From a bacterium (GTDB lineage Bacteria; Sumerlaeota; Sumerlaeia; SLMS01; JAHLLQ01): DNA of 64,000 bases. The stretch lies in the NCBI GenBank assembly GCA_020444065.1, contig JAHLLQ010000007.1, forward strand, positions 62,001-126,000, in the 5' to 3' direction. The notes under the pieces were generated by a model. The model saw only the letters and a program-made list of their open reading frames with translations. It was not told the origin of the DNA and ran no database searches. The position numbers were made by a program, and so were the translations under genes. This document shows, piece by piece, positions 6,762 to 59,863 of the stretch (position 1 is its first letter; every line of letters starts with the position of its first letter).

Positions 6762-7048
6762 TCCGTCGCGAAAGAGGCGACCCTATTGGGGCCATTCGCA
6801 GAAAGTCAATTGGACGTGGGTGTGTATGATGCGGCCAGCGGCATCTCAACACCGCTGCCTACCGTTGAGCCTGGCTCAACTCCCTCTGCGCACTCCCCGC
6901 GGGTTGTCGAACATCAAATTGAGTGGTCTCGAATTTGTGTTGCGTTTGCCATCGCTGGCGACAAGTGTCTTTCTGTCGGGAAGGGGGAGGAAGCTGGAAG
7001 CAGTACCGGCGTCTCCTCCTTCGCGATTCTCTCGGGAGGGGGAGTTTC

Positions 7049-30825: not shown

Positions 30826-31395
30826 GGAGCGGTGGGTCGCGCCTTCAGCGCTCCCTGGGCCTGGACGCTGGGGACCCAGGGCTTGCGCCCTGGGCTGGTA
30901 TGGGGCGGGGCGTTGCCCCTTGAGGGGCGAAGATTGGCGGGTGGGCTCTTGGGCAGGATGCCCAAATCACCTCGAGGGGGCGTACTCGTACTCAGCGGAG
31001 CGGTACTCGTACTCGTACTCGGTTCTTGGGGTTTCGAGTACGAGCAGGAGCACGAGGGGGGCAAAGCGCGGGGGTGAGGTGACTTGAGCATCCTTGCTCA
31101 AGCCCAGTGATGTTGGAGAGCCCGCTGGGGTTGGGGGGGGCGATGGGTCGCGCCTCCCGCCTTCGCAAGGGCTACGGCGGACGAGTCAGGACTCCCTGGG
31201 CTGGTATGGGGTGGGGCGTTGCGCCTTGAGGGGCGATTCGAAGGGCGAGGATTGGCGGGTGGGCTCTTGGGCAGGATGCCCAAGTCACCTCGTGGGGGCG
31301 TACTCGTACTCAGCGGAGCGGTACTCGTACTCGCACTCGGTTTTCGAGATTTCGATTACGCGCACGAGCACGAGCACGTGACGCAAGCGGTCCCA
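30826..31395. repeat. Dispersed modular palindromic repeat, copies D and E
   Basis: Occupies most of the 718-base gap between the subtilase start and the kdsB stop. Copy D holds CAGGGCTTGCGCCCTGGG (~30879), a GGCGTTGCCCC module (~30909), TTGGGCAGGATGCCCAAATC (~30949), GTACTCGTACTCAGCGGAGC (~30982) and a TGACTTGAGCAT..TGCTCAAG hairpin (31083-31102). Copy E (31195-31395) repeats the GGCGTTGCGCC, GGGCAGGATGCCCAAGTCACC and GTACTCGTACTCAGCGGAGC modules and ends in a CGAGCACGAGCACG tract. No protein-coding gene is supported; long open frames are repeat translations. Confidence 0.85.
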
Positions 31396-39516: not shown

Positions 39517-39539
39517 TCGTTCTTCCCTCTCATGATTTT

Positions 39540-41831: not shown

Positions 41832-41862
41832 TCCATCTTCCCTCCCACAGTATTCCGATTTG

Positions 41863-44112
41863 CTATTTCGCCATCCACCCATCGATGGGGAGTTGTGCCG
41901 TCCTTTGGCTCAGGAGGATGGAAATGCCAAGGCTATCGCTGTTTGTTGCGAGGATATCTGCGACTCCATCATTGTCGAGATCGCCAGTGGCAAGGCTGGT
42001 TGGGGTGTTTCCGACGAAGTAGTGAACGGCGTCGCCGAAGATTCCATCTCCACGACCGGGAAGCACCGCCAGTCTGTTTGTGCCACCAGAGATGGCCGCG
42101 ACGTCGACGAACCCATCGCCGTTGAAGTCTGCACAAACAGGAGGGGCGAAGCTCGCCCAGATGGGGTACCCTGAACCGGCGAACGAATAAGTGACAGCAG
42201 CGGAGAAGTCTCCATTTTCCTGCCCAAGAAGGACGCAGAATTCATCCGATGTCGAATTCGTTAGCAGCAGGTCCGGAGCTTGATCGGCGTTGAGATCTGT
42301 GATAACAAAATCGCGTCCCCAGAATGGCATTGGTAGTGACCTGGGGTCCTGAAATCCGCCCTGTCCAACTCCGAAGTGGAGGGTGAGTGTACAGGTTGTG
42401 GAGCTCGATGCCACGAGATCGAAGATGTGGTCTCCGTTGAGCTCTCCGGCGACGAATTCATCTGCGTCCTCAAGTTTCAGCGTGGGCGTTGTGGCGAGGG
42501 TTCCATCTCCGTTGCTCAGATAGATCTCGAGTCCATCTCCGCACCCCACCACCAGGTCGTCGGTGCCATTTCGATCGAAGTCCGCCGCATCGAGCGAGAG
42601 GATCGAGCAATTCGCACTGTTGGCGAGTACAGGGATTCGCTGCCCGACCATGAATGTTCCATCGCCTGCGCCGATGGCAACTGCGACGCTCTGCTCCGCA
42701 TCGCCCCACAGCATCGCATCCGGAAACGCATCGCCATTCAGATTTGCCGCCGCCAGGGCGCAACGACCTTGCCAGTTTCCATCGATTGCGTTGGTGAGAA
42801 TCGGTTCTTCAAAGGCCCCACTGGAGTCACGAAGCAGGAACATCAGGGCAATTCCGCCGCTGCTCAGGGTGATGGCGTCCTCTCGGCCATCTCCGTTCAC
42901 GTCTTCGAGAATCACCTGCGCCGGCCCGGATCGATGAATAGTGCTTTCTTCGATCTGCTCGCGGCAGGCTGGGATCATGTACGGGATCTGGAGCGTGCCA
43001 TCGCTGCTGCCTCGGATAATGTAGATGTCGGAGCTGCCATATCTCCACAGAGCGAGGTCTGCGTTCGAATCGCCATCGAAGTCGCCAATAAGGAGGCCTC
43101 GAATCATATCGGGTCCCAAGTACGTTGATTCCGGTTCGAAGTTTCCACCGCCGGTCCCAATCATCATGGTCAGATTATTGATTCCCGATAAGATCATGTC
43201 GGGATGACCGTCGTTGTTGATGTCGTTCGTGTACGCGTATGGGGACGGCATTGAGATCGGAACAAAGAGCGGATCCTCCAATGCACCTGTCCCATCTCCG
43301 AACATCAAGCCAATCTGGGGCGTGCCGACATCAGAAACAACGGCATCCAAGTAGCCATCTTCGTTCATATCTGCAAGGTCGAATCGGTAGGGGCGGATGT
43401 CGGTTGGGAAATCGGAGACGGGCGCAAACTGCTCATCGCCGAGGTTTAGAAGGATGTGAATGGAGTTCTGTTGTGTATCGAGCCCGACGATATCGGCCCG
43501 GCCATCTCGATTCATGTCCACGATCTCGAGGTTCCAGAATCCCGATGGAGCCAGCGAGATGGGACTCATGCGCGAGAAGTCTAGACCTCCTCCGTTCCAG
43601 AGAATAAGATTCGGTGCCACAATTTCGGGGAGACCATCGGAGTTGAGATCGCCAACCGCCAATCGATTGGAGGCGGTGCAGGGGAAGGCCTTCGCTTTGG
43701 CGAATGTTCCATCGCCGTTCCCAGCAAGCACCAGGACGCCGCTGGTTTCATATTCGGAGACGGCAATGTCGAGGTGACGATCTCCATCCAGATCTGCCGC
43801 AATAAGATCGTAGGTCACTCCACCCTGGTGCAGAATCCCGGGAGTCAAGAACGTCCCGTCGCCACGGCCCAGGCTGAGAAGAGTCTTCCCCGTGCCTTTG
43901 ATGGAATTGGCCATGTCCAGATGGCCGTCTTCGTTGAAATCGCCGACGACGCCTGTCTGCGACCCGCCGCCGATGCCGCCGTCAAGGACGTGCAGATTCA
44001 CGTCGTAGAAGACGCCTTCGGACGAAGGCGAATCGGCGGGCACCGAAGCGGCCAACGAAGCGAGAATGGCGACTATTCCAACGAATACGCGATTCCAGGG
44101 CCGTGTCTGCAT
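41863..44112 (-). CDS. Secreted VCBS/FG-GAP propeller protein, tandem paralogue 3
   Basis: 749 residues from ATG at 44112, which has a GGAGGGGGGAG site. The signal peptide is MQTRPWNRVFVGIVAILASLAASVPA. VCBS repeats fill the rest (DFNEDGHLDMA, DLDGDRHLDIA, DMNRDGRADIV, DFNGDGFVDVA). The tail LPIDGWMAK matches the other two genes. The open frame continues upstream to 44421, but that part covers the separate 60-codon gene and carries no conserved sequence. It is first in the tandem trio; the others follow with short gaps, so the three are probably one operon. Confidence 0.83.
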   Translation of the reverse strand: MQTRPWNRVFVGIVAILASLAASVPADSPSSEGVFYDVNLHVLDGGIGGGSQTGVVGDFNEDGHLDMANSIKGTGKTLLSLGRGDGTFLTPGILHQGGVTYDLIAADLDGDRHLDIAVSEYETSGVLVLAGNGDGTFAKAKAFPCTASNRLAVGDLNSDGLPEIVAPNLILWNGGGLDFSRMSPISLAPSGFWNLEIVDMNRDGRADIVGLDTQQNSIHILLNLGDEQFAPVSDFPTDIRPYRFDLADMNEDGYLDAVVSDVGTPQIGLMFGDGTGALEDPLFVPISMPSPYAYTNDINNDGHPDMILSGINNLTMMIGTGGGNFEPESTYLGPDMIRGLLIGDFDGDSNADLALWRYGSSDIYIIRGSSDGTLQIPYMIPACREQIEESTIHRSGPAQVILEDVNGDGREDAITLSSGGIALMFLLRDSSGAFEEPILTNAIDGNWQGRCALAAANLNGDAFPDAMLWGDAEQSVAVAIGAGDGTFMVGQRIPVLANSANCSILSLDAADFDRNGTDDLVVGCGDGLEIYLSNGDGTLATTPTLKLEDADEFVAGELNGDHIFDLVASSSTTCTLTLHFGVGQGGFQDPRSLPMPFWGRDFVITDLNADQAPDLLLTNSTSDEFCVLLGQENGDFSAAVTYSFAGSGYPIWASFAPPVCADFNGDGFVDVAAISGGTNRLAVLPGRGDGIFGDAVHYFVGNTPTSLATGDLDNDGVADILATNSDSLGISILLSQRTAQLPIDGWMAK

Positions 44113-44207
44113 TGCTCCCCCCCTCCACAAAACGCAGATGCGTTTGACGCATGTTTGTGGAGGGCGTGGGTCGTGGCAACGGAAGAATGGAGGGATGTCG
44201 CTGGCGG

Positions 44208-44390
44208 TTAGTACAGTCCGGCGCCTTTGCCGGCGAGGAGGATGACGACGACGCCGACGGCGAGGACGAGCCAGCCCCATTTGCTGTCGGCTTTGAAGGC
44301 GACGAGGCCGCCGACAACGACGAGGACGACGCCGGCAATGCAGGAGTACATGAAGTTGTTGCTGATCAGGCTCATCAGGCTGCGTAGCAT
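44208..44390 (-). CDS. Small two-helix membrane protein
   Basis: 60 residues with two hydrophobic helices, FMYSCIAGVVLVVVGGLVAF and WGWLVLAVGVVVILLAGKGAGLY, joined by a short charged loop (KADSK). ATG at 44390 follows GAGGACC. Very small inner-membrane proteins like this are often stress or partner-regulating peptides, but nothing here fixes a role. It precedes the VCBS trio by 95 nt on the same strand. Confidence 0.6.
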   Translation of the reverse strand: MLRSLMSLISNNFMYSCIAGVVLVVVGGLVAFKADSKWGWLVLAVGVVVILLAGKGAGLY

Positions 44391-44472
44391 GGCAAGGTCC
44401 TCGCGTGGGTGATTGAGGCATGGTGATTGTTCGGAAGCGAGAGCTTCAATGGGATTTTAGTGCGGGGTGGGG

Positions 44473-44691: not shown

Positions 44692-45198
44692 ATGAAGAGA
44701 TTGCGCTGGTCTGCCGCGGCGATTATGGCGGCCGCTCTGTGGGCGACTGCCCCGGGGCCGGTGGCGGCCGATGAAATCGTGTACGCGAAGACGTACGAGA
44801 CGGAGTTGCGCGAGGGCACTGGGCTGGCCGGTCCGGTGGTTGTGACGGTGGAGCAGGGAACGGCTCTGACGGTGCTGAAGAAGACGCGCATGCGTTACCT
44901 GGTGCGCACGCCGTCGGGGGAAAAGGGCTGGGTTTCGAAGCTGAAGATCAGTGAGGATCCGCCGGATGCGGATCGCGGTTTCGGCGGCCTGATCCGCGGG
45001 ACGGATGGGCCGGAGGAAATGCGCACGGCAGCGTCCGGACGCGGGCTGTCGGAGAATGCAGAGAACCTGGCGGGCGGAAACGGCGGCCTGGTCGATATGG
45101 CCGTGATCAATGCAGTGCAGCAGATGGAAGAGCGCGCCGCGGATATCACGGAGACCGAGGTGGATGAGTTCTTGCGCGAAGGAGGGATCAACTCATGA
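44692..45198 (+). CDS. Exported SH3-like domain protein, first gene of CHAT operon
   Basis: 168 residues with a signal peptide (MKRLRWSAAAIMAAALWATAPGPVAA) and AAAGGAGT before the ATG. Residues ~30-90 form a bacterial SH3-type barrel (AKTYETELREGTGLAGPVVVTVEQGTALTVLKKTRMRYLVRT, then SGEKGWVSKLKI), usually a peptidoglycan- or peptide-binding module. The C-terminal ~75 residues are polar and end in an acidic helix (MEERAADITETEVDEFLREGG). Its stop overlaps the next start (ATGA), making it the first member of a five-gene coupled unit. Confidence 0.85.
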   Translation: MKRLRWSAAAIMAAALWATAPGPVAADEIVYAKTYETELREGTGLAGPVVVTVEQGTALTVLKKTRMRYLVRTPSGEKGWVSKLKISEDPPDADRGFGGLIRGTDGPEEMRTAASGRGLSENAENLAGGNGGLVDMAVINAVQQMEERAADITETEVDEFLREGGINS

Positions 45199-46136
45199 GG
45201 TGGAGTGACTTGATTCGTTTCCGTGCGATTGCGCCGGCGATGTTGCTGGTGGGTGTTGCGTTGTGGAGTGCGGCGTGTTCCGGCGAGGAGTTCGGTAGCC
45301 TGGTCGAGGCGAGCTATGTGGCGTACAAGGCGAGCGAAGGCGAGCTGACGCCGGAGGAAGAGGCGCGGGCTCGTCAGTTGGGTCAGGCAGCGGGCTCGGT
45401 GCACCAGGCGGCGCAGGGCATCAATCTGGAGACGGAGCGTTCGTTGGGTGGCGGTCTGGCCGTTCGCACATTCAGTCAGTACGGCAAGCCGCATCCGAGC
45501 GAAGAACTGCAGCGTTACGTGAACCTGGTTGGTCGCGCGGTGGCGCGTCAGGGTGGCCGCGAGGATTTGCCGTCGAGCGCTTACTACTTCGCGGTGATCG
45601 ACAATCCGGATCCGAACGCGTTTGCCGGTCCGGGCGGGTATATTTTTGTGACGTCCGGTGCGCTGGAGCTGATGGAAACCGAGGCGGAACTGGCGGGCGT
45701 TCTGGCGCACGAGGTGGCGCACGTGAACGAGAAGCATCTGCTGAAGATGTATAAGCGCCAGCAGGTTCTGCAGGCGGGTCAGGAGCTGGCCGTTGCGCTG
45801 GAAGAAGACATGGCGCAGTACACGCAGGCGGTGGATTTCTTCTCTACAACGGTGTTCGATCACGGCATCGACAAGGGATTCGAGTACGACGCGGACCTCG
45901 TGGGGACGGAGATCACGGCATTCACCGGTTACGATCCGGCGGGGCTGCGCGATTTCCTGAAGCATCTGCGGGCGACGACGACCAAACAGGGCGGGTGGTT
46001 TTCGACGCATCCGGACACGGGTGCGCGCATCGGGAAGCTGAACGCGATGCTGGCGACGGAGCTGCAGGGCGTCGACGGTGTGCAGCAGCGCGAGCGCTTC
46101 CAAAACACAATGGGACGTACATTGCATAGCCGATGA
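45195..46136 (+). CDS. M48-family metalloprotease lipoprotein
   Basis: 313 residues. Lipoprotein signal (LLVGVALWSAAC), then an M48 zinc-peptidase domain: LAHEVAHVNEKH with H172, E173 and H176, a downstream FEYDADLVG acidic zinc ligand segment (E/D in the third-ligand position), and STHPDTGARIGKLNAML, the usual M48C C-terminal HP motif. E. coli relatives (LoiP, BepA) cut or chaperone misfolded outer-membrane proteins from the periplasm, so envelope quality control is a fair inference. It overlaps both neighbours by ATGA, so its synthesis is tied to the SH3 protein before it and the AsmA-like protein after it. Confidence 0.92.
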   Translation: MRWSDLIRFRAIAPAMLLVGVALWSAACSGEEFGSLVEASYVAYKASEGELTPEEEARARQLGQAAGSVHQAAQGINLETERSLGGGLAVRTFSQYGKPHPSEELQRYVNLVGRAVARQGGREDLPSSAYYFAVIDNPDPNAFAGPGGYIFVTSGALELMETEAELAGVLAHEVAHVNEKHLLKMYKRQQVLQAGQELAVALEEDMAQYTQAVDFFSTTVFDHGIDKGFEYDADLVGTEITAFTGYDPAGLRDFLKHLRATTTKQGGWFSTHPDTGARIGKLNAMLATELQGVDGVQQRERFQNTMGRTLHSR

Positions 46137-49100
46137 CCTCTTCCGAGCAATCGCCGAAACCGCATGTTCCGTCGCTTGAAAAAGAGGGACGGAGTAAGAA
46201 GCCGCGACGATGGTTGCGGCGATTGCTCTTTATTGCGGGTGGGTTGATTCTGTTGCTGCTGATCGTCGTGTTGGTGACTCCGGCGATTTTGACCAGTGGT
46301 TGGGCCGAGCAGAAAGCCTCTGCGACGGCGAGCGAGATCCTTGGTCGACCCGTTACGATCGAGGGAATCGCATTCGGTTGGCGCACGCCGTTGACGTTGG
46401 ATCGCATAGAGATTCCGGCGATTGAGGGCGAAGACGACCGGCCGTTGTTCGACCTGGAGGGCGTAGAGGTTCCGCTGACGCTGACCGGCGTTTTGCGCAT
46501 GCCGCCATATGCTCTCGACGAGATTCGCGTGCATCGTGTGGAAGTGAACGCGGTGCGGCTCGAAGACGGCGAGTGGAACGTTATCAAGATCGCCGACGGC
46601 ATGAAGAAGGAGCCGGAGGCGCCAGAGCCGCCGAAGGAAGAGAAACCGTCGGAAGCGGCGCCGTTGCCGATTTCTTCGCTGAAGATTGCCGTGGATGAAA
46701 TCGATCTGCGGGCGGTGGACTTGACGCGCGATTACGTCGCCGGATGGGAAGGCGGTTCCTTGTCCGTTCTATGGCCGGGCGACGTGGCGCCGGTGACGAT
46801 CGATGTGGATGGTACGCTGCGTTCGGGCGAAGAGACGATGCCGTGGGATGTGCGCGCGAAGATCGAGCACTGGATCGATTCGGACGGCATGTTGACTCCG
46901 ATGACGACGGTTGCGACGACGGCGAGCGACGGGATGGTTCACGCGGGACAGATCGCTGCGGGCGGGTTCTTCCTGCATGCGGACGCGACGGGCGCAGAGC
47001 CGATCGTGGCGCGTATTGTGATTCCGCTCCGGCGATGGGCGGAACTTGCGCAGCCGGGCCTGCCGCCGGACGCATTTGTGCCACGGATGGATGGCGAGCT
47101 GGAGTTGGCGCTGAATGCGCGGCACGCGAAGGACTTCCAGAAGTGGGACGTCGAAGCGAGCGTTGCCACGCATGATGTCGTGGCGGCGGGTGCGCCTCTG
47201 GGGCCGGCGCCGCAGACAATTCCGAACCTGACGGCTTCGCTTTCTGCGGCAATGGACCTGTCGGAACGACGAGTAGATGAATTGAGTGCGACATTCGATT
47301 CGCCTGCGCTTCAGATGTTGGCGGAAGGGGGCGACCTGGCGTTCGACGATCCGGCGCATCCGGGGCGCTTCGAGGCCCACGCGCACGCGGATTTTGAGAA
47401 GCTGTGGATGCTGGGCGCGTCGTTCATCAGTGCAACGAACGATGCCGGGTTGACGGGGACGATGGATTTCACGGCGCGCCTTCTGCCGCCGGGCGACGCG
47501 GAGCATCGCGTGTTCGTTTCGCTGGATGTTTCACCCGGCGCACTGACGACGCTGGCTCCGTTCGCAGAGACGCCGACTGCGTTGCCCTTTCCGCTCGATC
47601 TGTCGCCGTTTGCGACAAAGACGTCGGCCACATTGGCGCTGAATCCTGCAGAGAAGCTCTTCTCCGTCCCGACTTTTGGTGTCGCGGCGCCGTTGTACTA
47701 TGTGGACGGGTCGGCCGAGGCGAATCTTGCCGGCGAGACGCCAGTGTGGAAGACTGCGTTGGCGGCTGGGTTCGATCTGGATGCTCTGAACGACTCGTAC
47801 AACGCGATCCTTGCGCAGCATAATGTGCACGAACTGCAGGGGCGGATCGTCGCGGATGTTTCGGCGAACGGCGCGGCAGATGGTTCGATTTCGACCAAGG
47901 GCTCCGTGACGAGCAGGGACATCGGCGCCGCGATTCCGCGCGAGAACGGTCTGCTGCCGATTCGGCAATCGGAGGTTGTCGCGAATTGGGATCTGACGGC
48001 CGACCCGGCCGCGAAGGCGATTGAGATTCGGAACGCTGCCCTGCGCAGTCCGCTGGCATCGCTGGATGTGAAAGGCAACGCCTCGCCGACGGCGATCGAT
48101 CTGGCGGGCAAATCGAAGACGTCGCTTGGGCCGATCATGGCGCTGGCGCAGCAGTTCAAGGAGTTGCCAATCGACTTGGCGGGTCGACTCGAAATGGACT
48201 TCGACGCCAAGGGTGAGATTGGGCGCGACCTGCAGGCTCATGTGTCGCTGTTTTCCTTTGGTCCCGTGCGCTACACGCAGATGGGAACCGATGTATTCAG
48301 CGAGGATCTGCATTTCGAAACGGGAACGCGGGTACGTTGGAACGATGGCGAACTTGAAAGTGTCGATATCGACGGGCTGCATGCTCTGCTCGGCGATGCG
48401 ATGTCGGCGTCGCTGGATTCGACCGTGAATCTGGGCGATGGAACCGGCGCAACGGCGAGCGGGCATTTTGCCGGTACGATGCCGTTCCTGATAGCGTTTG
48501 TTCCCCCGGAGAAGATGGAATCGATGGAGATGGCGCTGGATGCGACGGGGATGACGACGGCCACGGTGACGATCGATGCGCCGCTGGCGTTGGGCGATGA
48601 TGGTCTCAAGATGGGCGAGCGCTGGGTCGTGAAGGGGAATCTCTCCACCGATGTTCCGGAGATGGAATGGTACAAGGGCGATATGGGCGAGTACCTGGCC
48701 GGTACGCGTGACGATCGCGATTTCACGGTGACGCTGAATCCGAACGATCCGATGGGCTTTGTGTATGAGGACAGTGCTGTGACCGCGACGAGCGAAGTCA
48801 TGGGCCCGATGGATATCCAAATGGGCGAGGTTCGCATCGAAAACTCGACGCGCTTCGAGATGAACAAGCCGATTCTTGTGAACATTCCTGCGAGTCGTAT
48901 TGGTGCGTTTGTTTTCCCGACGGAAACGATGGAGATGCGGCTTCCTCCGACGACGTTTGCCGGTAAGTTGAAGATCGAAATGGAGCGGAGTGACTTCATT
49001 GCGAACGATGTCGTTGCGGTGATCGAAGGCGTTGGAAACGGCGGTGGCTCCGGCAATTTCAACTGGGGCGACTTCTCGTGGAGCATGGATTCCACGGTCG

Positions 49101-50596
49101 ATGTTTCCGATATTCGGAATCTGACACAGTTGGTCCAGTTGGATGAGGAGATGATGGGGCGCTTGCCGGAGCTGCACGGCAAGGCGCAGGCGACGACGAA
49201 GTTGCGGGGCTCCGATCCGCGGCCTCCGTACGATCTGGCAAGGGGCCTGCCCGTGCGCGGCAGTGCGACGCTCGATTGGGGGGAGGTCGCCGTGCGCAGT
49301 GGAGAGGCCTGGTGGGTCGAGGGCATTGCAGGCAATGCCTCGTTCGATGCTTCCGACGATGGGAAGAACGCGGCGCTTGCGTGGAATCTTGGAATTGATG
49401 AAATCGGTGCGGACGCGATCGAGCAAAAACCCGTGCGCGATTTTGCGGTGAACGGAAGTCTGGAACTCGACGATTTCGATGTGCTGCAATTGACTGTGCC
49501 GGAAACAAGCGTCGGGAATTACGAGATGCTCGCCGGCGCGAATTTCCGCGCGGAAGGTCTGAAGCCTTATCTGCTCGAAGGCGCGGGGACAGATATCGAG
49601 TCGTGGTTGCGTGGGCCGAGGTTGCTTGGCGACGCGAAGTTCCACCTGGATCTGGATGGGCTGAACGAGACGCATCCTCTGCTGACCGCCGGTGGCACGA
49701 TTGATTGGAGTGGAAAGCTCTCCAACACGCCGGGGCGTTTGCTGGAATTCAATTCGTTGCTTTCGACGGATTCCGTCGATGTGGCCTTTGCGGATCTGTT
49801 TGCGTTGAATGGACTGAATGGCAGTTGGGATGCGTTGAAGACGTATCGTCTCGACAGTTCCGTACGCATTCCGACAAAGCCAACGGAAGGCAAGTTCACG
49901 GTCGATCGCATTGCGTTCAAAAAGCCGCCAGCCGAGGGCGAGATCTTGGATTCGGTCGTGACGGTGCAGGGATTCGAGCGTGGCCTGCGCATGTCGGCAG
50001 GAATTCGCGACTTCCTCGGCGGACCGGCGACGGCATCGGCTTCTTTGACTGAAGAGGGCAGCGATCCCGTTCTGCGGGCGGAGATGGAATTGACGGGTTT
50101 GCGCGGCGGCAAGCTCTCGCCCTACCTGCGAGACCTGGGTGGGTGTCAGGATGAGATCAGCGGCGTCGCGACGATGACGTGGCGCATTCCGGAATCGAGC
50201 GAAGGCAACGTGCTGGATACGCTTCTTGTGCGGCTGCGTTCGACGCAGATCGGCAAGAAGGCGCTCGCGCGATTGCTGCAGGCGCTGGATGCGAACCAGG
50301 ACGATCCGCGCTTCCAGAATGCCATCACGGCGTTGAACTTCGGTGCGCCGGTTGGCGGGCAGTTTGTGCTTGAGAATTCACTCGTAACAATGGCCGCGCA
50401 ACTTCGATTACCGGTTGGCGTGATTGTTCCACTTCCAATCCTCGACCGCGCGCCACTGGGCGAGATCTTCGCCGTGTACGGCATGCAGCAGCAGGCCGGC
50501 GCGATCAGTCGTGCGCACGATCCGCTGCTGATGTTACTGCGGTCGGATCTGTTTATCGATGCATCACAATCCACAGAGGCAGGAACGCTACCATGA
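46133..50596 (+). CDS. AsmA/YdbH-like intermembrane bridge protein
   Basis: 1487 residues. A basic N-terminus, then one membrane anchor (LLFIAGGLILLLLIVVLVTPAIL, ~residues 31-53), then the AsmA-type opening: SATASEILGRPVTIEGIAFGWRTPLTLDRIEIPAI, and EVNAVRLEDGEWNVIKI. The remaining ~1300 residues are repetitive beta-strand, as expected for a repeating-beta-groove lipid conduit spanning the periplasm. TamB, AsmA and YdbH are the reference proteins. YdbH is favoured by the DUF1318/YdbL-like gene immediately after it. Overlaps both neighbours by ATGA. A Pro/Glu-rich loop (EPEAPEPPKEEKPSEAAP) sits near residue 165. Confidence 0.83.
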   Translation: MTSSEQSPKPHVPSLEKEGRSKKPRRWLRRLLFIAGGLILLLLIVVLVTPAILTSGWAEQKASATASEILGRPVTIEGIAFGWRTPLTLDRIEIPAIEGEDDRPLFDLEGVEVPLTLTGVLRMPPYALDEIRVHRVEVNAVRLEDGEWNVIKIADGMKKEPEAPEPPKEEKPSEAAPLPISSLKIAVDEIDLRAVDLTRDYVAGWEGGSLSVLWPGDVAPVTIDVDGTLRSGEETMPWDVRAKIEHWIDSDGMLTPMTTVATTASDGMVHAGQIAAGGFFLHADATGAEPIVARIVIPLRRWAELAQPGLPPDAFVPRMDGELELALNARHAKDFQKWDVEASVATHDVVAAGAPLGPAPQTIPNLTASLSAAMDLSERRVDELSATFDSPALQMLAEGGDLAFDDPAHPGRFEAHAHADFEKLWMLGASFISATNDAGLTGTMDFTARLLPPGDAEHRVFVSLDVSPGALTTLAPFAETPTALPFPLDLSPFATKTSATLALNPAEKLFSVPTFGVAAPLYYVDGSAEANLAGETPVWKTALAAGFDLDALNDSYNAILAQHNVHELQGRIVADVSANGAADGSISTKGSVTSRDIGAAIPRENGLLPIRQSEVVANWDLTADPAAKAIEIRNAALRSPLASLDVKGNASPTAIDLAGKSKTSLGPIMALAQQFKELPIDLAGRLEMDFDAKGEIGRDLQAHVSLFSFGPVRYTQMGTDVFSEDLHFETGTRVRWNDGELESVDIDGLHALLGDAMSASLDSTVNLGDGTGATASGHFAGTMPFLIAFVPPEKMESMEMALDATGMTTATVTIDAPLALGDDGLKMGERWVVKGNLSTDVPEMEWYKGDMGEYLAGTRDDRDFTVTLNPNDPMGFVYEDSAVTATSEVMGPMDIQMGEVRIENSTRFEMNKPILVNIPASRIGAFVFPTETMEMRLPPTTFAGKLKIEMERSDFIANDVVAVIEGVGNGGGSGNFNWGDFSWSMDSTVDVSDIRNLTQLVQLDEEMMGRLPELHGKAQATTKLRGSDPRPPYDLARGLPVRGSATLDWGEVAVRSGEAWWVEGIAGNASFDASDDGKNAALAWNLGIDEIGADAIEQKPVRDFAVNGSLELDDFDVLQLTVPETSVGNYEMLAGANFRAEGLKPYLLEGAGTDIESWLRGPRLLGDAKFHLDLDGLNETHPLLTAGGTIDWSGKLSNTPGRLLEFNSLLSTDSVDVAFADLFALNGLNGSWDALKTYRLDSSVRIPTKPTEGKFTVDRIAFKKPPAEGEILDSVVTVQGFERGLRMSAGIRDFLGGPATASASLTEEGSDPVLRAEMELTGLRGGKLSPYLRDLGGCQDEISGVATMTWRIPESSEGNVLDTLLVRLRSTQIGKKALARLLQALDANQDDPRFQNAITALNFGAPVGGQFVLENSLVTMAAQLRLPVGVIVPLPILDRAPLGEIFAVYGMQQQAGAISRAHDPLLMLLRSDLFIDASQSTEAGTLP

Positions 50597-51183
50597 GAAC
50601 CCTACCGAAACTCTTGCTTGGAATCGTGATCCTCGGAGCCGTGTCGTTTGCGACGACCGGTTGCGGGGGCAGCCTCTTCAATGTCGACCTGTTCGTGGTC
50701 GGCGAGCAAACGTCGCTGGAGAAACAGGTTCTCGGGACGTACGATTCGTTGGGCGAGAATCTGCTGATCTACAGCAGCGTGCGCGGCGTTTCGGAGGACG
50801 GTTCACTGAAGACGCCGCCGCCATCGACGGAAAGTCAGCAGGCGACGTACATGGCGATGCGTAATCGCGAGTACAACCGCGGCGACATCGAGGGGATCCT
50901 GCGCGAAGGCATTGCGGGCGAAGCGAATGACGGCTTGCTGGCGCTGCGTGATGAAGAAGCGGGGGCGGTCATTGCCGATCTGACGCGCGATGAAGTCGAG
51001 CGCGTCGTGGACGAAGAGAACGCCGATCGGCAGACGATTCTGGATCGCCTGGTGCAGACAACGCCGGGAGTGGATGAGTCGTCACGCGGCGAGGTCGCCT
51101 GGATCTTCGCCGGATTGAATCACGATCTGGCTCCGGACGGTTCGTGGGTGCAGTCCCGCGACGGGGAGTGGGTGAGAAAATGA
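50593..51183 (+). CDS. DUF1318 (YdbL-like) lipoprotein
   Basis: 196 residues. Lipoprotein signal ending in SFATTGC, then FVVGEQTSLEKQVLGTYDSLGENLLIYSSVRGV, a segment typical of DUF1318 lipoproteins. Middle part: NREYNRGDIEGILREGIAGEANDGLLAL. The C-terminus DGSWVQSRDGEWVRK resembles the end of E. coli YdbL. In E. coli YdbL works with YdbH and YnbE in phospholipid transport between the membranes. YdbH-like is the gene before; no YnbE-like small lipoprotein is seen. Overlaps both neighbours by ATGA. Confidence 0.83.
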   Translation: MRTLPKLLLGIVILGAVSFATTGCGGSLFNVDLFVVGEQTSLEKQVLGTYDSLGENLLIYSSVRGVSEDGSLKTPPPSTESQQATYMAMRNREYNRGDIEGILREGIAGEANDGLLALRDEEAGAVIADLTRDEVERVVDEENADRQTILDRLVQTTPGVDESSRGEVAWIFAGLNHDLAPDGSWVQSRDGEWVRK

Positions 51184-54100
51184 AAACGACTCGGAAAACA
51201 CTTCTGGCGATCGGAGCGGCGTTGCTCTCGACGGCGGCCAGTGGGCGCGATCCGGCGCCTTACTTGCGCTTGCTGACATCCGATCCTTCCGCGGACTACT
51301 CGCCGACGGTTTCTCAAGACGGCAAGCACCTCGTGTTTGTTTCAGAGCGCGATGGAGGCCAGGAACTCTACACGACACGGTTGGATGCGGAGTTCCCCGA
51401 TCAACCAACGGCGATTGCGCCCAGCGCGGCGTCGGATTCGCAACCTGCACTGTCGCCCAATGGGAAGTGGCTCGCCTGGACATCGACGCGCGAGGATGCG
51501 TTTGGCGACGTGATGGTGATGGCATTCCCGAATGGCGAGCCACGGGCGCTTTCCGAGCGAGGCATTCGCGACGATTCACCGCAGTGGGTGCAGCGCAGTG
51601 GCAAACTAGCTCTTCGTTTTCGCTCCACGCCATTGAACGGCGAGCCCGAGTGGCATGAAGTCGCCGCGCGGCGCTGGGATGACGTGCGCCCGTCGGAGGC
51701 GCGGATGGAGATGCCAGATTTTCCATACGGCGCGACGATGGCGGCAGAGCCTGTGGATGAAGAGGGGCCGTGGTTGCTTTTTGCAGACGATACAAATGGG
51801 GATGGAGTCTTCGGCGATGGTGATCGCCCCAGCGCGTGGCGATTCGATGCACGCGATGGATCGTGGCAACAATTGACACCTCCGCTGGAGGGATTGGATG
51901 CGCCACGGCTCTCTGATGGGGAACTTGTTTTCGGCGTGAACCTGCGCGGGAATCTGGATGTTGCGTTGGTGACGCAGCCGTTTGCGGTTGCCGGGATTTC
52001 TTCGGCGCGGGCGGGGATGGAGCAGGCGACCGATGCGTGGGGTGCCGATCCGTTCGATCCGTACACGCCGGTTGCGCTTTGCCGGCAAGGAGCTCTGCAC
52101 GAGGCGGGCTCTGAAGTAGCCGGTGAGGCAATCGCGGAGGCGTTGGACGTCTTGCGCGAAGCCAATCGGCCCGAGCAGGGACTGGCGATGCTCGACTGGT
52201 CGTCGGCGAATGGCGTGGTGGCTTCGCCGCTGGATGCGGAGCTACTGTTTCGGCGTATCGTGTTGACGGCGGCTGCGCAGCGACGCGCCGGGGCGCTGCG
52301 TGCTGAAACGCGTGCGGCGCAGGCGAGTGCTTCGCGTGAATTGGAAGAGTTGGCGAAGGCAAATGCGAGCGATGCCGCGTTGCATTCCCACTTGCTGTTG
52401 GAAGCCGCACGGCTGGCGTTGCATGCGGAAGATTCTGCGCGGGCGATTGAGTTGGCCCTAGAAGCAGAGCAGGCGACCGATGCGCCGCATCGTGTGCGCG
52501 CGGAGGCGGCGCTGTTTCGCGCAAAGACGTATGAGTCGTTAAACCTGCCGGACCAGGTGGTGGCGGCTTACGAGATGGTGTTGATGGAATTCAGCGATGT
52601 ATCGGACGTTGTGGAGAAGGCGGCGCTGCAACTGACGGATATCGCGGCAAAGAATCCGCCTGAGGGCGCGTCGGCTTATGCGTCGGTTCGCCGTTCGGCA
52701 GATCTCGTGCCGGATTCACCGACGCTGCAGGCCGCGGCGTTCTATCGTTCGGGACTCTTGTTGGCTGATGCGGGCAATTCCGGTCAGGCAAAGGACGCGT
52801 GGGGCGAGGCGATCGCGATGGAGGAACAGGCTCCACGGCTGGCGGCGCGTTCGTCGTTCGCACTGGCGGAGCTCCTCGCGCGCGAGGGCAAGTACATTGA
52901 GTCGATCGACACGTACGAGTCGGTTGAAGAAAATACGCGTGCGCAGTTCTTCCCGGGCGCTCCGGCGTTTTATGAACAGGCGCGCGAAGGTCTCGTTCGC
53001 GAGTATCTGAACAAGGGCAATTTCGAATTGCGAGTGGGCGATGCGGCGCTTGCGGCGAATACGTTCCGCGAGTTGATCGATCGGCGTCCGGAGCTTGTCG
53101 AGGCGTGGCGGGGTTACCTCGACGCGCGCTATCGTAGCGGGACGTTGGATAAGGCGTTGCTGAAGGAATACAAGACCGCGGCAAAGGCTGAACCGCGCAA
53201 TGCGCTGGTACAGTATCGGTACGGCCTGGCGCTGACGTATTTCCTGCCGATCGAGAAGGAAGCGGTGCGACGTTTGAAAGCGGCGATCGTGCTCGACGGT
53301 TCGGTTCCGTATTATCACCAGACGCTCGGCTTTGTTGATGAGCATTACGGCCGGACGCGCGACGATCGCGGTTTCACTGCGGATGCGCTTGTGGAGTACC
53401 AGCGTGCGTTGGCATTGGTGGATCCGGCGGCGCGGCCGACCGACTATGCGCGGCTGCTGATGAATGTCGGCAATGCGGCGATGGGGTTGGATAATTACTC
53501 GCGCGCGGCGGAATCGTACCGTCGACGCATTCAGACGGGTGAGCCATTCGGCGACGAGCGGACCGAGTTCCTGATGTATCGTTCGTACGGCATGGCGTTG
53601 TTCCGTACGGCGAAGCCTCGGGAAGCGGCAGCGGCATTCCAGTCGGCGATGGATGTGATTCCCGCGATGGTGAACTACGACATGGTCACCAACGAGCGGG
53701 GGTATGAACTGGAGACGGAGTTGCTCGATCGCCAAGCGTTGGCGTTTATGGAAGCCGGCGCACACGACCGGGCGGCTCAGCAGTTTGCGCGCGTTGCGGA
53801 CCGGCACGAGGCGAATTCGTTGTCGCGCGTGCGGGCGTTGCGGAATCGCGGATTTGTGCTGCATCGCCAGGCGCTTGGTGCACTTGGCTTTGAGAGGGAG
53901 CAGTTGCTGCGCGAGGCGGAGGAGGCCATTCGCGGTTCGATGGCACTGGCGACGAGTTCCAAGCTGGTTGATGACCGCGAACCGGCCGGAGGCGGCGGGT
54001 TGTTCTCGATCGAGAAGACCGTTGCAGCGTCGGAAGAAGGCGGAGCGCGGCAGGGGTTCGCGCCGGACGAGGAAGTGCGACTGCTGCAATCGGCGCTGGC

Positions 54101-57100
54101 GAAAATCCTGCAGGATCGAGGCCGGACGGATGAGGCGATCGATGCGTTGCGGGCGGAACTGAACGTGCAGCCGAAGCTGGACGAGGGCAACACGACGTAC
54201 TATCTGACGATTCGGCTCGTGACATTGGATCGGCTTGCTTCGGAGTTGATCCGTGCGGGCCGTCCAGAGGAAGCGGCGGAGGCGTTGATCGAGGCGATCG
54301 ATGTGGCGCGATTCTCTGTCGGCGATGAAGTGCAAACGAATGGCAATGGCCTTTCGGTTGTACTGGCGCGATTGACGGAACTGGCACTGGCGGGCGACGA
54401 CGTTCCGTTTAGCGAGGGCGACCTTGAGGGCACCTGGTTGCTGGAAAACAAAAGTGGGGACGGAGATGTTTTGGCGGCGTTGGATCGAGCGCTGACGGTG
54501 GCATTGGAGCTCCGCACGACTGATGGCGCGGAGCACGTGCTTTCTCCGCCGCTGCAGCGAGTTCGCCTGTTGCTGGCGCGGGCGCTTGTTGCCGAGCGAA
54601 GAGCGGAAACAGCAGATAGTAATGGATTGGATCTGATCCGAGCGGCGACTGAACGGATGCGTTTGGAAGGCTTGGCACGCCGCGTGGCAGAGATGCCAAG
54701 TCAGAGTGCCGAGGGCGGGGAAGTGAAGCGGCTTGGAATTATGGCGCGCGGCCTGTTGATTCGGAGTGCCCTGCAACGTGGAGACAACGACGAAGCGCAG
54801 GCGGAGTTGGACGATGCCTTGGAGTTCGCGACGACATCCGGATTCGCTTCATGGCGTTGGTGGCTGGAGGCGCAGGTCGCGTTGATTGCCGACGACTCGG
54901 ATGCGGCGGAGCGTGCGTTGGTAGAAATGGAAGGCCTGCAGCCCGGGACGATGATCGAGCCGGAGCGCATCCCGTGGGCACTGCTGGAGCACTGCGAAGA
55001 TCTGACGATCCGGCCGCTGGCGGAATCGGGCGACTGGGAAACAGCGTGGGAAGAGACGGCGCGTTGGCGCTGCGTTCGGTTGCGGCTGGCGTTTGACCGC
55101 GCCGTGCCGCAGATTCGCGTGGAGTCGTCGGATGAATTGGCTTGGCTGAAGGAGACAATTCGTTTGCGCGAGCGTTTGCGTGCGGCGATCGAGACATTGC
55201 AGTCGCAGCCGGCCGGTGCGGAGACGAAAGCTGCCCGCGCAGCGATGGAGACAGCCGCCGATGAACTGAGTTTACACATAGATGCGGGCCGAGCGAACGG
55301 CGCAACGGGGCTTGGGTTGATTGCACCGGAGCCGTTGCCGGTTGCCGATGCGGCGATCTTCCTCGAGGAAGGTCTGCCTCTGCCGGCGCCCGCGGCGCTT
55401 GTGCTGTCGACGCGATTCGGGACGGTCGCGTGGACCATGGATGGGATGCATGCTATTGCGTCCGATTCGGATCGGGAAGCGCTGGCCCGGAATGCGGGTG
55501 TGTGGTTTGTGATGGGCGACCCGATCGCGTTTGATGGCGCGACGGTCATTAACATGCCGACTGTCGAGTCGACTTACCTTGCGATTGAGAATCTGTGGCT
55601 GGATCTCGATGCTGAGGCGATTCGTTTCCCGAAGTCGGACAATGCATCGGCAGAGGATCTTCTGCAGACGATGAAGAACGACCTGCAGTTCGCATCGAGC
55701 GTGATGATTGCGGAGCCGCTGCATGTCGAGGGGCCGAACCCGCTGGGATGGCAGATCGGCAATACGCCGATGCCGCTGGGGCGCTTGCTGGAATCGTTGC
55801 CGCCTCCGTCGGACATCCGGGCGGACCTGGATGCAAGTGGGACGATTGATGCAGCGACGCGTCGGGCGCAGGAAGTTGCCCTGGCGGCGGCGTTCTCGTT
55901 TGTCGGTGCGGGCGAAGCGCAGATCGATGGCCATCGTTGGGTGGGGGCGAATTTCTCGCCGAACGACTTGTCGGATTACGCCGAAGCGGAAATCGATTCG
56001 TTGTTCGGGCTGGTTGCCGGGCGTTATCGTCGCGGCGAACTGGCTCGGGCCGTGGTTCCGGCACAGCAGCTTCTGCAGTTGCTGCGCGTGATGAATAAAC
56101 CGACCGGACAAGTTATGCAGGCGGGATTCATGCTGGCGCAGATTCAGGGCGATCTGGGTCGTGATGTGGAGGCCGCGCGCACAGCGGAGGAGCTTGTCGG
56201 CATCGCGCGAGAAGCAGATAATGCCGAGTTCCTGATCGAGACATTGAAGTCCTTTGGCAACTACGCGAATTCCGCGCGGCGGTTCGACGATTCCCATGCG
56301 GCCTACGCGGAAGCTGCGGATCTGCAGGGCGCGGCGGGGAACGTAGCGGAGCAGTTGAAGCTGGTCGCTTCGTCGGGCGTTGCATTGGAGAATGGCGGCC
56401 GCTATCCGGAAGCGCTGGAGGCGTTCCACCGTGCCCTGGAATTGGCGGAATCGCAGAACGATGCGGCGCTTCAAATTGCACAGTGGCAGCGCATCGGGCG
56501 GATCTACTTGCTGCGCCAGAATCGTTACGAGGAAGCGGGCGATGCGTTTGCGCAGGCGCTGGAGATTGCGCGCGAGTCTGGCGATGTGGAGTCGGAAATC
56601 GCGGCGACGCTTGATCTGGCGCGCGTCGATGAGCGGCTTGCGCGTTACGATTCGGCGGTTGAGCGAGCGGAAGCGATGGAGCAGCGCGCGCTGGAGTTGG
56701 ATTTGCCGTTGCAGGAAACGGACGCGATTCTGCTGCGCGCGTTTGTTGAATGGGCGCGGGCTTCGTATCTCGATGCGTTCCGTGCTGAGCGCCAGGGGTT
56801 GGAACTGGCGCGTCAACTGAACGATCGACCGTTCCAGATTATTGCACACAACACGGCAGGGCTGACGCATTGGTCGCTGAACGATACAAGGCAGGCGATC
56901 ACCGAGTTTGAGAATGCGCTGGATCTTGCGGACCAGGGCCTGTTCCGCAGCGAGGTCGCGAGCAGTCACAACAACCTTGGACTCGTGAAGCGTTCGATGG
57001 AGCAGTTCGACGAAGCGCTGGAGGACTTCAGGGCTGCGCTGAAGATCGATCGCGAAGAAGGGAATCGTTGGGGCATTGCGTACGCTCAGAAGAACATTGG

Positions 57101-58820
57101 CATCACGCACATTCAAAGTGGGCAGCCGGACAAAGCGATCTCTCCTTTGGGAGAGGCGATTTCGTTGTCCGAGGAGATCGGCGATCGGACGAACAACACG
57201 AAATCACTCGTCGCGATGGGCGACGCGCATCGTGATTTGAACGAAAACATTAAGGCGCGCGTGGCCTACACGACGGCGCTCGATCAGGCGCGGGACATTC
57301 CGCTGCCGGAAATGGAATGGCGAGCGCTCTATGGGCTGGCCGTCCTGGATCGGCGTGCGGGGAATCTGCAGTCGACGCGGGAGAACCTGGCGGCGGCGAT
57401 CAGTGTCGTCGAGGGACTGCGCGCGCGGATCAAGGTGGAGGAGTTCCAGGACGGGTTCCTCCTCGACAAGCAGCAATTGTACGACGAGATGATCGCGCTT
57501 CTGCTCGATCAGGGCGAAGTGCGCGAGGCGTTCAATTACTCTGAACGTTCACGCGGGCGTAACTTCATCGATCTGCTGGGCAACCGACGGATCGACTTTG
57601 CGTCGGCCGAGGATCGCGATGCGATGCAACGCGATCGTCGCCTCCGCCTGCAGGTCGAATCGCTGCAGCGGCGGCTCTCTTCTGCGCCGGAGGACCAGCG
57701 GGATGAGCTGCGTGCGGAACTCGATGAAGCGAAGCAGGAGTATTCGAATTTCCTTGTGGAGATTCGCGCATCGAATCCGCAGCTCTCGACATTCGTCGAG
57801 GTGCAGCCGGTGGATGTGGCCGAGATTCAGTCGCTACTGGATCCAGACACGCGGCTGGTTGTCTATCACGTGTTGCCGGAGGAGTTGGTTGCGTGGGTGA
57901 TCGGTCCGGCGAGTTTCAACGTGGTTCGCACGCCGGTGTCACGGGACGAGTTGGCCGTGCGAATCGAGGGGTTGCGGGATCGGCTGCAGGAGTTCGCGCC
58001 GGTCGACGGGGAGTTGGCGACGTTGTCGGCGTGGTTGATGACTCCGATTGCCGGCTTGATCGAACCGGCAGCGCGGGTTGGTATCGTGCCACATCGTGAG
58101 TTGCATCTGCTGCCGTTCGCGGCCATCCGACTGGACGGTACACCTTTGATCGAACACGTTTCGTTGTTCCATGCGCCGAGTGCGAGTGTGTTACGTTACA
58201 CGTTTGGACGACGCGGACAGATCGCCGGGAACTTGCGGGTATTGGCCGTGGGGAATCCACGGTTCGAGCGTGCGGAGATGAACCTGCCGTTTGCGGAGAA
58301 GGAAGTGGAGCGCATTTCTTGGACGTTCCCCGATGCAGAGGTTGTGAAGGGCGAGGAGGCGACCGAGTCGTGGGTTGTGGATCACATCGGAGATTACGGG
58401 ATTATTCACCTCGCAACGCACGGCCAGTACGATCCGAAGCTGCCATTGCTTTCCGGAATTCAATTGGCAACGGACCAGCATACGGACGGAGAGCTTACAG
58501 CTCGCGAGGTGTTTGGGCTCAGTCTTCGTGCAGACCTCGTGGCGTTATCTGCCTGCCAGACAGGCCTTGGTCGGATCAGCAGCGGCGACGAAGTTGTGGG
58601 TTTGAATCGCGCGTTTGTGTATGCGGGAACGCGGCAGATTCTCTCGAGTCTTTGGCGGGTGGACGATGTGTCCACGGCAGTGATGGTGAAGCACTTCTAC
58701 AGAAATGTACGAACAATGAATCGTGCGGAAGCACTTAGGAACGCGCAGTTGGAAGTGCGAACTCGTTATCCTCATCCTGCTCATTGGTCAGGGCTGTTTC
58801 TGACCGGCGATTGGCAGTAG
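51180..58820 (+). CDS. Giant exported propeller-TPR-CHAT peptidase
   Basis: 2546 residues. ATG at 51180 overlaps the previous stop (ATGA) and starts a signal peptide (MKTTRKTLLAIGAALLSTAASG). Residues ~25-300 are a TolB/PD40-like propeller (YSPTVSQDGKHLVFVSERDGGQELY; QPALSPNGKWLAWTSTREDAF). Long TPR arrays follow at ~330-1330 and ~1650-2110 (HNNLGLVKRSMEQFDEALEDFRAALKI; FNYSERSRGRNFIDLLG). The C-terminal ~300 residues are a CHAT (caspase-like clan CD) protease with H2414 in HLATHG and C2459 in LSACQTG, and the RQILSSLWRVDD motif. A middle segment (~1390-1600) is a second, degenerate CHAT-like region lacking the dyad. Likely periplasmic or surface protease; target unknown. Confidence 0.92.
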   Translation: MKTTRKTLLAIGAALLSTAASGRDPAPYLRLLTSDPSADYSPTVSQDGKHLVFVSERDGGQELYTTRLDAEFPDQPTAIAPSAASDSQPALSPNGKWLAWTSTREDAFGDVMVMAFPNGEPRALSERGIRDDSPQWVQRSGKLALRFRSTPLNGEPEWHEVAARRWDDVRPSEARMEMPDFPYGATMAAEPVDEEGPWLLFADDTNGDGVFGDGDRPSAWRFDARDGSWQQLTPPLEGLDAPRLSDGELVFGVNLRGNLDVALVTQPFAVAGISSARAGMEQATDAWGADPFDPYTPVALCRQGALHEAGSEVAGEAIAEALDVLREANRPEQGLAMLDWSSANGVVASPLDAELLFRRIVLTAAAQRRAGALRAETRAAQASASRELEELAKANASDAALHSHLLLEAARLALHAEDSARAIELALEAEQATDAPHRVRAEAALFRAKTYESLNLPDQVVAAYEMVLMEFSDVSDVVEKAALQLTDIAAKNPPEGASAYASVRRSADLVPDSPTLQAAAFYRSGLLLADAGNSGQAKDAWGEAIAMEEQAPRLAARSSFALAELLAREGKYIESIDTYESVEENTRAQFFPGAPAFYEQAREGLVREYLNKGNFELRVGDAALAANTFRELIDRRPELVEAWRGYLDARYRSGTLDKALLKEYKTAAKAEPRNALVQYRYGLALTYFLPIEKEAVRRLKAAIVLDGSVPYYHQTLGFVDEHYGRTRDDRGFTADALVEYQRALALVDPAARPTDYARLLMNVGNAAMGLDNYSRAAESYRRRIQTGEPFGDERTEFLMYRSYGMALFRTAKPREAAAAFQSAMDVIPAMVNYDMVTNERGYELETELLDRQALAFMEAGAHDRAAQQFARVADRHEANSLSRVRALRNRGFVLHRQALGALGFEREQLLREAEEAIRGSMALATSSKLVDDREPAGGGGLFSIEKTVAASEEGGARQGFAPDEEVRLLQSALAKILQDRGRTDEAIDALRAELNVQPKLDEGNTTYYLTIRLVTLDRLASELIRAGRPEEAAEALIEAIDVARFSVGDEVQTNGNGLSVVLARLTELALAGDDVPFSEGDLEGTWLLENKSGDGDVLAALDRALTVALELRTTDGAEHVLSPPLQRVRLLLARALVAERRAETADSNGLDLIRAATERMRLEGLARRVAEMPSQSAEGGEVKRLGIMARGLLIRSALQRGDNDEAQAELDDALEFATTSGFASWRWWLEAQVALIADDSDAAERALVEMEGLQPGTMIEPERIPWALLEHCEDLTIRPLAESGDWETAWEETARWRCVRLRLAFDRAVPQIRVESSDELAWLKETIRLRERLRAAIETLQSQPAGAETKAARAAMETAADELSLHIDAGRANGATGLGLIAPEPLPVADAAIFLEEGLPLPAPAALVLSTRFGTVAWTMDGMHAIASDSDREALARNAGVWFVMGDPIAFDGATVINMPTVESTYLAIENLWLDLDAEAIRFPKSDNASAEDLLQTMKNDLQFASSVMIAEPLHVEGPNPLGWQIGNTPMPLGRLLESLPPPSDIRADLDASGTIDAATRRAQEVALAAAFSFVGAGEAQIDGHRWVGANFSPNDLSDYAEAEIDSLFGLVAGRYRRGELARAVVPAQQLLQLLRVMNKPTGQVMQAGFMLAQIQGDLGRDVEAARTAEELVGIAREADNAEFLIETLKSFGNYANSARRFDDSHAAYAEAADLQGAAGNVAEQLKLVASSGVALENGGRYPEALEAFHRALELAESQNDAALQIAQWQRIGRIYLLRQNRYEEAGDAFAQALEIARESGDVESEIAATLDLARVDERLARYDSAVERAEAMEQRALELDLPLQETDAILLRAFVEWARASYLDAFRAERQGLELARQLNDRPFQIIAHNTAGLTHWSLNDTRQAITEFENALDLADQGLFRSEVASSHNNLGLVKRSMEQFDEALEDFRAALKIDREEGNRWGIAYAQKNIGITHIQSGQPDKAISPLGEAISLSEEIGDRTNNTKSLVAMGDAHRDLNENIKARVAYTTALDQARDIPLPEMEWRALYGLAVLDRRAGNLQSTRENLAAAISVVEGLRARIKVEEFQDGFLLDKQQLYDEMIALLLDQGEVREAFNYSERSRGRNFIDLLGNRRIDFASAEDRDAMQRDRRLRLQVESLQRRLSSAPEDQRDELRAELDEAKQEYSNFLVEIRASNPQLSTFVEVQPVDVAEIQSLLDPDTRLVVYHVLPEELVAWVIGPASFNVVRTPVSRDELAVRIEGLRDRLQEFAPVDGELATLSAWLMTPIAGLIEPAARVGIVPHRELHLLPFAAIRLDGTPLIEHVSLFHAPSASVLRYTFGRRGQIAGNLRVLAVGNPRFERAEMNLPFAEKEVERISWTFPDAEVVKGEEATESWVVDHIGDYGIIHLATHGQYDPKLPLLSGIQLATDQHTDGELTAREVFGLSLRADLVALSACQTGLGRISSGDEVVGLNRAFVYAGTRQILSSLWRVDDVSTAVMVKHFYRNVRTMNRAEALRNAQLEVRTRYPHPAHWSGLFLTGDWQ

Positions 58821-59086: not shown

Positions 59087-59863
59087 ATGAATTTCTTCTC
59101 CAGTGCGCTCCGCAAAGGTATGGAGGAACGTCGCTTCAACCAGGCGCAGTTGGCTGAGTTTCTGAAAGTCGACCCCGCTTACGTGTCCCGTTGGTTGAAG
59201 GGCGCCCATCCGCGTATCGATCAAATGTCGCGCGTGTTGACAGCTCTCGGTTGGGACCTGGATCGCGCACATCCGGATTACGATCCCGTCGCCGATGCAC
59301 TGACGCGCGTGAGCCAAGATCCCACCGGCGTCGATTCCGGCGCTGTCAAAGAGGCCGCTGCCGATTACGGCGCTCCCGCTTCACTGAAACGAGTCTTGGA
59401 GAAGGCTTCTCGTCGCGCCGCCGATGCCAAGTCCGGCGTTATCTTCGCGGGTCGTGTCGATGCATCCAACGGCTCTGTGAAGTTCGAAGAGTTTGAACTT
59501 CCTGTCCCGAATTTCCTGTCGCCGGCTTTTTCGACCATGCTGACGGACAAGGAAGACATCGTGTTGTTCCTGCTCGAGGGCAGCGGGCTGGCGCCTCACT
59601 TCCAGGATGGAACTTGGCTTTTTGCCCAACAGGTGAACAGCATTTCCGAACTGAAGACTGGCGACGATGTGATGTTCAAGACCGGTGCGAAGGGCAAGAA
59701 TTGCGATCTTCGCCGCTTCGTCCGCATGACCAATGCGTCCAGTGGCCGCACGGAAGTGATCGTGGGTGCGCCGCTGACAATGCACGGTTCCTATCTGACG
59801 TGCAAAGTGCGCGAGGCCAAGTGCCCCTACAAGATCGTGGGGACTTTCCGCCAGCGCGACTGA
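59087..59863 (+). CDS. XRE-family regulator with degenerate LexA/S24-like domain
   Basis: 258 residues. The N-terminal helix-turn-helix (FNQAQLAEFLKVDPAYVSRWLKG, residues ~17-39) is of XRE/Cro type. A helical linker follows, then a LexA/CI-like peptidase fold (~160-255): VLFLLEGSGLAPHFQDGTWLFAQQ, GDDVMFKTG, LRRFVRM. In active S24 proteases this segment reads GxSMxP with a catalytic Ser; here G167-L168 sits at that position, so self-cleavage is probably lost. It may bind a ligand or simply dimerise. It lies between the CHAT operon and the Fn3-like operon, with its own promoter, and is followed by a strong terminator. Confidence 0.82.
   Translation: MNFFSSALRKGMEERRFNQAQLAEFLKVDPAYVSRWLKGAHPRIDQMSRVLTALGWDLDRAHPDYDPVADALTRVSQDPTGVDSGAVKEAAADYGAPASLKRVLEKASRRAADAKSGVIFAGRVDASNGSVKFEEFELPVPNFLSPAFSTMLTDKEDIVLFLLEGSGLAPHFQDGTWLFAQQVNSISELKTGDDVMFKTGAKGKNCDLRRFVRMTNASSGRTEVIVGAPLTMHGSYLTCKVREAKCPYKIVGTFRQRD

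Follow-up and report, generated by a model that had tools for sequence, protein, structure and literature searches.

What holds together a row of five tightly coupled genes that joins an AsmA-like protein, a DUF1318 lipoprotein and a giant protein ending in a CHAT protease domain? The row in question lies at 44692-58820 on the forward strand of a 64,000-nucleotide stretch of Candidatus Sumerlaeota DNA (contig JAHLLQ010000007.1), and it is this whole stretch that we refer to as the window. From this point on, the genes are called g1 (44692-45198), g2 (45195-46136), g3 (46133-50596), g4 (50593-51183) and g5 (51180-58820). Re-reading of the open reading frames (ORFs) returns the row exactly as the first-pass annotation had described it, with all five ORFs free of internal stops and an ATGA overlap of four nucleotides at each of the four joins. 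We favor, tentatively and at somewhat less than an even chance, the reading that the five products form one cell-envelope apparatus, in which a bridge of the AsmA type, a lipoprotein as its end piece and a giant protein serving as scaffold or sensor, with a caspase-like output, would work together. That the genes form one functional unit had been proposed from the window by itself; the proposal is supported by a gene order kept through the taxonomic order and by a core triad that recurs in other phyla.

Within the window's order, the arrangement is uniform. Among 61 genomes searched, the g4 gene and a match to g5 are present in all 12 genomes of the order, and the same search returns no full-length g5 outside it. 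On the contigs fetched, g1, g2, g3 and g4 follow each other on the same strand in all 11 judgeable genomes (the contig of G002 is too short for judging g1-g2), and g5 stands next after g4 in each of the 10 genomes in which the contig continues, so the order seen in the window is conserved in its relatives. Because this order is kept at only 18-31% identity between g3 proteins, it is held by selection and not by recency. The four-nucleotide overlaps g1/g2, g3/g4 and g4/g5 are likewise retained in relatives, while the g2/g3 overlap occurs in the window genome only. Every one of the 11 g2 orthologues has the HExxH motif (HEVAH or HEIAH), and the CHAT dyad is intact in every g5 copy that covers it. 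A lipobox is found in all g4 proteins, an export signal in all g5 proteins, and a lipobox in most g2 orthologues, being absent in the genus labelled g5.

The same core extends well beyond the order. A search for the DUF1318 family covered 291 genomes, with 35 neighborhoods inspected, and individual phyla were queried with A1, an alignment of 16 g4-type lipoproteins from several phyla that share an invariant Cys24, E43, Q45, G48 and W193. Full-length A1 matches occur in 4 of 148 genomes of the G061 phylum, in all three genomes of the G153 phylum and in both genomes of the G188 phylum; counting any match, 58 of 82 genomes of the G083 phylum are positive. The triad of AsmA-like protein, DUF1318 lipoprotein and giant propeller/TPR/CHAT protein is linked in at least three of these other phyla (G061, G153 and G083), with the lipoprotein gene lying between the other two. 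In the G083 phylum, a g5 homologue follows within 2.6 kb after 37 of the 40 lipoprotein genes inspected, and an AsmA-like gene directly precedes the lipoprotein gene in 24 of 36 scorable cases; these counts exclude two false candidates, a spurious ORF (L112) and an M1 peptidase (L118). The latter (4245-7250), which has a sorting-type tail, and a second M1 peptidase in L133 (4010-6997) lie upstream of g4-g5 in the place of AsmA. In one other phylum, three genomes (G061, G315 and G352) have all five parts, in the order AsmA, DUF1318, CHAT, SH3, M48, with SH3 and M48 fused into one 410-amino acid (aa) protein in G061. These and the window's order are the only places where SH3 and M48 stand beside the triad; in G182, DUF1318 adjoins M48 without CHAT. 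In a tree of the g5 body from which CHAT was left out, the window's order and three giants of the G061 phylum form one group with support of 100, as obtained from a quick LG+G4 run with midpoint rooting, long branches and uneven composition. The giant is exported throughout, and is a predicted lipoprotein in some lineages.

The most informative component is g5, a protein of 2546 aa. As depicted by Pfam, it begins with a TolB-like PD40 propeller at about residues 29-330 (51264-52169, the end being approximate; PD40 52.7 bits, with the TolB model matching residues 33-144), continues as a TPR solenoid and ends in CHAT at residues 2279-2544 (58014-58811; 202 bits). The exported giant with CHAT that had been claimed for the window is indeed there, and its dyad is intact: His2414 (58419-58421) and Cys2459 (58554-58556) are the predicted catalytic pair, the former conserved in all order relatives covering it and the latter conserved along with it. 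By its CHAT domain and this predicted dyad, g5 belongs to the clan CD proteases of CHAT type. Within the window's order, no part of g5 is better conserved than CHAT; g5 is the only CHAT protein of its genome. Across all lineages, 37 of 45 complete giants have an intact dyad; the remaining eight, all from the G083 phylum, have lost it, which corresponds to two losses on the tree. The eight dyad-less giants nevertheless keep their neighbors, g4 in every case and AsmA in seven, so that protease activity alone cannot account for the association. Of all the data, dyad loss with partners retained hints most clearly at mechanism, and the pattern in these sequences suggests that the giant probably has a further role independent of catalysis, with proteolysis as an output that is added or regulated.

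Two known proteins invite comparison with g5. Csx29, the Craspase protease of type III-E CRISPR systems, likewise has a TPR array in front of a CHAT domain with a His-Cys dyad, and its protease is switched allosterically (PMC10028731). However, g5 is exported, four times larger, carries the additional propeller and lacks a Cas7-11 partner; it scores 33 bits against an equivalog cut-off of 300 for Csx29, and no CRISPR genes occur among the five genes or their conserved neighbors. HetF of Anabaena, a divisome protein with CHAT and a membrane anchor (PMC8406250), is, like g5, a CHAT and TPR protein at the envelope with a non-defense function, although its architecture differs and it has no AsmA or DUF1318 partner.

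The lipoprotein at the center of the triad, g4 (196 aa, lipidated at a predicted Cys24), has its DUF1318 domain (PF07027) at the C-terminus, as seen by Pfam, alignment and profile comparison. The DUF1318 assignment survives the profile search, with 38.4 bits against a cut-off of 27, and all 16 members of A1 match as well. Behind the lipid anchor g4 has the motif VGExTxLExQVLGxY; in the form VGEKTxLExQVLGxY it marks a distinct lipoprotein type, which differs from the more usual CVTVNVYFPAAE type of DUF1318 lipoprotein. A profile comparison of the DUF1318 part with E. coli YdbL gives a probability of 96%. YnbE (PF13617) has no match in A1, where hhalign returns 4% and covers the signal peptide alone. 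In L069 (9576-10181) and L075 (9531-10130), DUF1318 lipoproteins behind short AsmA-like genes have an N-terminal part in which a YnbE-like beta strand can be made out by eye, such as KPIKIEAHITVDI. These would possibly be natural YnbE-YdbL fusions, as judged from sequence; PF13617 does not match either protein, and the resemblance is therefore kept as a hint. Another family of the same class has tandem DUF1318 lipoproteins (L060, 6494-7930, reverse strand) upstream of a 1203-aa protein with a transmembrane (TM) anchor, without M48 or CHAT.

The AsmA-like protein, g3 (1487 aa), combines an N-terminal TM anchor with a predicted long all-beta periplasmic part. Pfam matches are confined to residues 21-192 (DUF748, 54.5 bits with a cut-off of 50; AsmA, 33.1 bits with a cut-off of 29.8), and with its N-terminal TM segment and AsmA N-domain g3 belongs to the AsmA superfamily (PF05170/PF05359). 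An AlphaFold model of residues 288-1487, computed from three sequences, consists nearly throughout of beta structure, interrupted by a short helix at intervals of roughly 120 residues, at a mean pLDDT of 56 and a pTM of 0.34. At this low confidence, the periodic pattern suits a repeating groove. The YdbH family (PF11739) is not represented: neither g3 nor seven other AsmA-like proteins match, whereas E. coli YdbH itself scores 970 bits, and hhalign between g3 and YdbH gives a probability of 0.2%.

These results bear on the YdbH/YdbL-like module that the first-pass annotation had seen here. The DUF1318 half holds; the YdbH half does not, nor is there a YnbE-family protein. Two papers describe YdbH-YnbE as an intermembrane phospholipid route (PMC11784454, PMC8593681). 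In E. coli ydbH-ynbE-ydbL, as in the window, an AsmA-type protein is followed by a lipoprotein and DUF1318, the first join is a four-nucleotide overlap, and the location is the envelope. The differences are that lipid anchor and DUF1318 belong to a single protein, g4, that a giant CHAT protein plus SH3 and M48 is added, and that g3 falls outside the YdbH family, which leaves DUF1318 as the sole shared family. Since the gene logic is shared without membership of the YdbH or YnbE families, it is fair to infer that the triad works like the E. coli system but not that it is a member of it.

The two remaining genes are SH3 and M48 components. The product of g1 is an exported protein of 168 aa with signal peptide, SH3b domain, RGL motif and a C-terminal tail of the DxFxxEGG type; SH3_3 scores 25 bits, just below its cut-off of 27. 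RGL motif and DxFxxxG tail mark a specific family common to two phyla, and a tail of the g1 type sits at the junction of an SH3-M48 fusion (L091). In g2, a predicted lipoprotein of 313 aa (Cys28 in SAAC), the M48 metalloprotease that had been claimed is upheld by a Pfam score of 102 bits and by the zinc motif HEVAH at residues 172-176 (45708-45722). The nearest solved structures are 3c37, an M48 protein of Geobacter, and BepA. With LoiP, 3c37 and BepA, g2 shares the M48 domain, HExxH and, in most orthologues, the lipobox, but the TPR part of BepA is absent; g2 reaches 71.7 bits against the equivalog cut-off of 570 for BepA, and falls far below that for LoiP. The fused M48 linked to the operon in G061 is not the best M48 match of that genome (105 versus 171 bits), so the linkage in G061 may have arisen separately. 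The same genome also has a stand-alone SH3-M48 pair (L151, 6429-7836, contig C8), which resembles the window's M48 more closely than does the fused copy in the operon. As their distribution in these genomes indicates, SH3 and M48 are an accessory part of the putative apparatus in some lineages.

Pfam confirms the domains as first annotated (M48, AsmA/DUF748 at the N-terminus, DUF1318, and PD40, TPR and CHAT), and all five products carry an export or membrane signal, as had been stated. For signal peptides, lipoboxes and the TM segment, the assignments come from inspection by eye and a hydrophobicity scan, without a trained predictor. Linkage, domains, export signals and dyad states can all be read directly from the sequences and from comparison of genomes. 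As to lipid cargo, docking, switching and substrate, we infer the following. Fixed in the inner membrane, the AsmA-like g3 would span the periplasm as a hydrophobic lipid bridge, the outer-membrane end of which g4 may hold or gate, uniting in one chain the roles of YnbE (lipid-anchored partner) and YdbL (DUF1318). The giant g5 would serve as periplasmic scaffold and sensor, docking on the bridge through propeller and TPR solenoid, and where the CHAT dyad is intact it may cleave a partner in a regulated manner upon disturbance of bridge or envelope, similar to allosteric TPR-CHAT switching. SH3 would provide wall contact and M48 a quality-control protease, as accessories. The more specific proposal, that several phyla possess a caspase-gated intermembrane lipid bridge in which the outer lipoprotein end of an AsmA conduit is controlled by cleavage from a giant periplasmic sensor, with pseudo-protease versions in some lineages, is one we regard as rather doubtful.

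Other explanations must be set against the single apparatus. The AsmA-like protein could act like TamB in the assembly of outer membrane proteins or lipoproteins, with M48 (BepA-like) and CHAT removing or maturing stalled clients. The kinship of g2 with BepA and 3c37 suits this, as do the two protease genes of the five-gene form and the TolB-like propeller and TPRs, which are typical protein-binding modules. However, M48 and SH3 are missing from the neighborhood in most triad lineages, the cluster has no TamA/BamA-type gene, and the closest annotated arrangement, ydbH-ynbE-ydbL, is a lipid system, which makes protein assembly unlikely. Seen from the dead giants, g5 might instead be a structural scaffold of the bridge, its CHAT a protein-binding fold with secondary, dispensable protease activity. 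The two losses on the tree, affecting eight giants that keep g4 throughout and AsmA in seven cases, fit well; a dyad intact in the other 37, and without exception in those order members that cover it, within the best-conserved part of g5, does not, and we think this quite unlikely. A conflict, defense or programmed-death system with an exported CHAT caspase at its center comes to mind, as CHAT and TPR-CHAT proteins are frequently found there (Csx29/Craspase, PMC10028731), but it is very improbable given vertical presence in every order member examined, an exported product with housekeeping-type partners, and dyad loss while partners are kept. PADLOC finds only a TPR and no defense system.

It is also conceivable, at a low probability, that the five are co-transcribed genes of the envelope whose products have related tasks but act separately, without forming a single complex. 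SH3-M48 pairs also occur alone (G061 contig C8), g2/g3 coupling is not conserved, and g4 can stand alone (L110-L112), whereas linkage of the triad in several phyla at low identity, with tight joins, speaks for a joint function. Several observations weigh against the single apparatus itself. The AlphaFold model of g4 failed (pLDDT 42). That of g3 is weak (mean pLDDT 56) and its Foldseek matches are meaningless, the best PDB match being ApoB at a TM-score of 0.12, which was not used. Neither YdbH nor YnbE gave a family match. In family f302 of the G083 phylum, the g4-type lipoproteins of L110-L112 have neither AsmA nor g5 as neighbors; that of L112 has an 857-aa TM-anchored protein downstream. 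LptD was not found in the window genome, so its envelope differs from that of E. coli. In favor of the apparatus, the window genome encodes an Omp85/BamA protein and hence has an outer membrane (diderm).

In the literature searched, no paper joining the CHAT domain and AsmA was found, and no description of the AsmA/DUF1318/giant-CHAT combination. Phospholipid delivery to the outer membrane, and the docking and regulation of AsmA-type bridges, have been studied almost only in proteobacteria and Bacteroidota, and DUF1318, named in one paper of the literature searched, is practically unstudied. A partner set that recurs across phyla offers concrete candidates for the lipoprotein end piece and the giant scaffold. 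It would place caspase-like CHAT proteins in a conserved housekeeping role at the envelope, with the natural dead-protease giants as built-in controls.

The surroundings of the operon are less constant. Promoter and terminator scans around it gave no match. Directly 3' of g5 is a helix-turn-helix regulator (59087-59863, forward strand), a neighbor not kept in relatives. Upstream, on the opposite strand, are three adjacent large FG-GAP repeat proteins (37249-44421), and further FG-GAP proteins occur at 6923-9664 and 17842-19761. In sister family f2 (L050, L051, L052, L054 and L058), the region upstream of g1 contains a second large protein, AsmA-like by eye, along with a gene resembling alpha-oxoamine synthases and a conserved small protein some 144 aa long. 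Elsewhere in the window, at 30875-30920 on the forward strand, is a full-length match to the Acido-Lenti-1 RNA family (41 bits, with a cut-off of 37).

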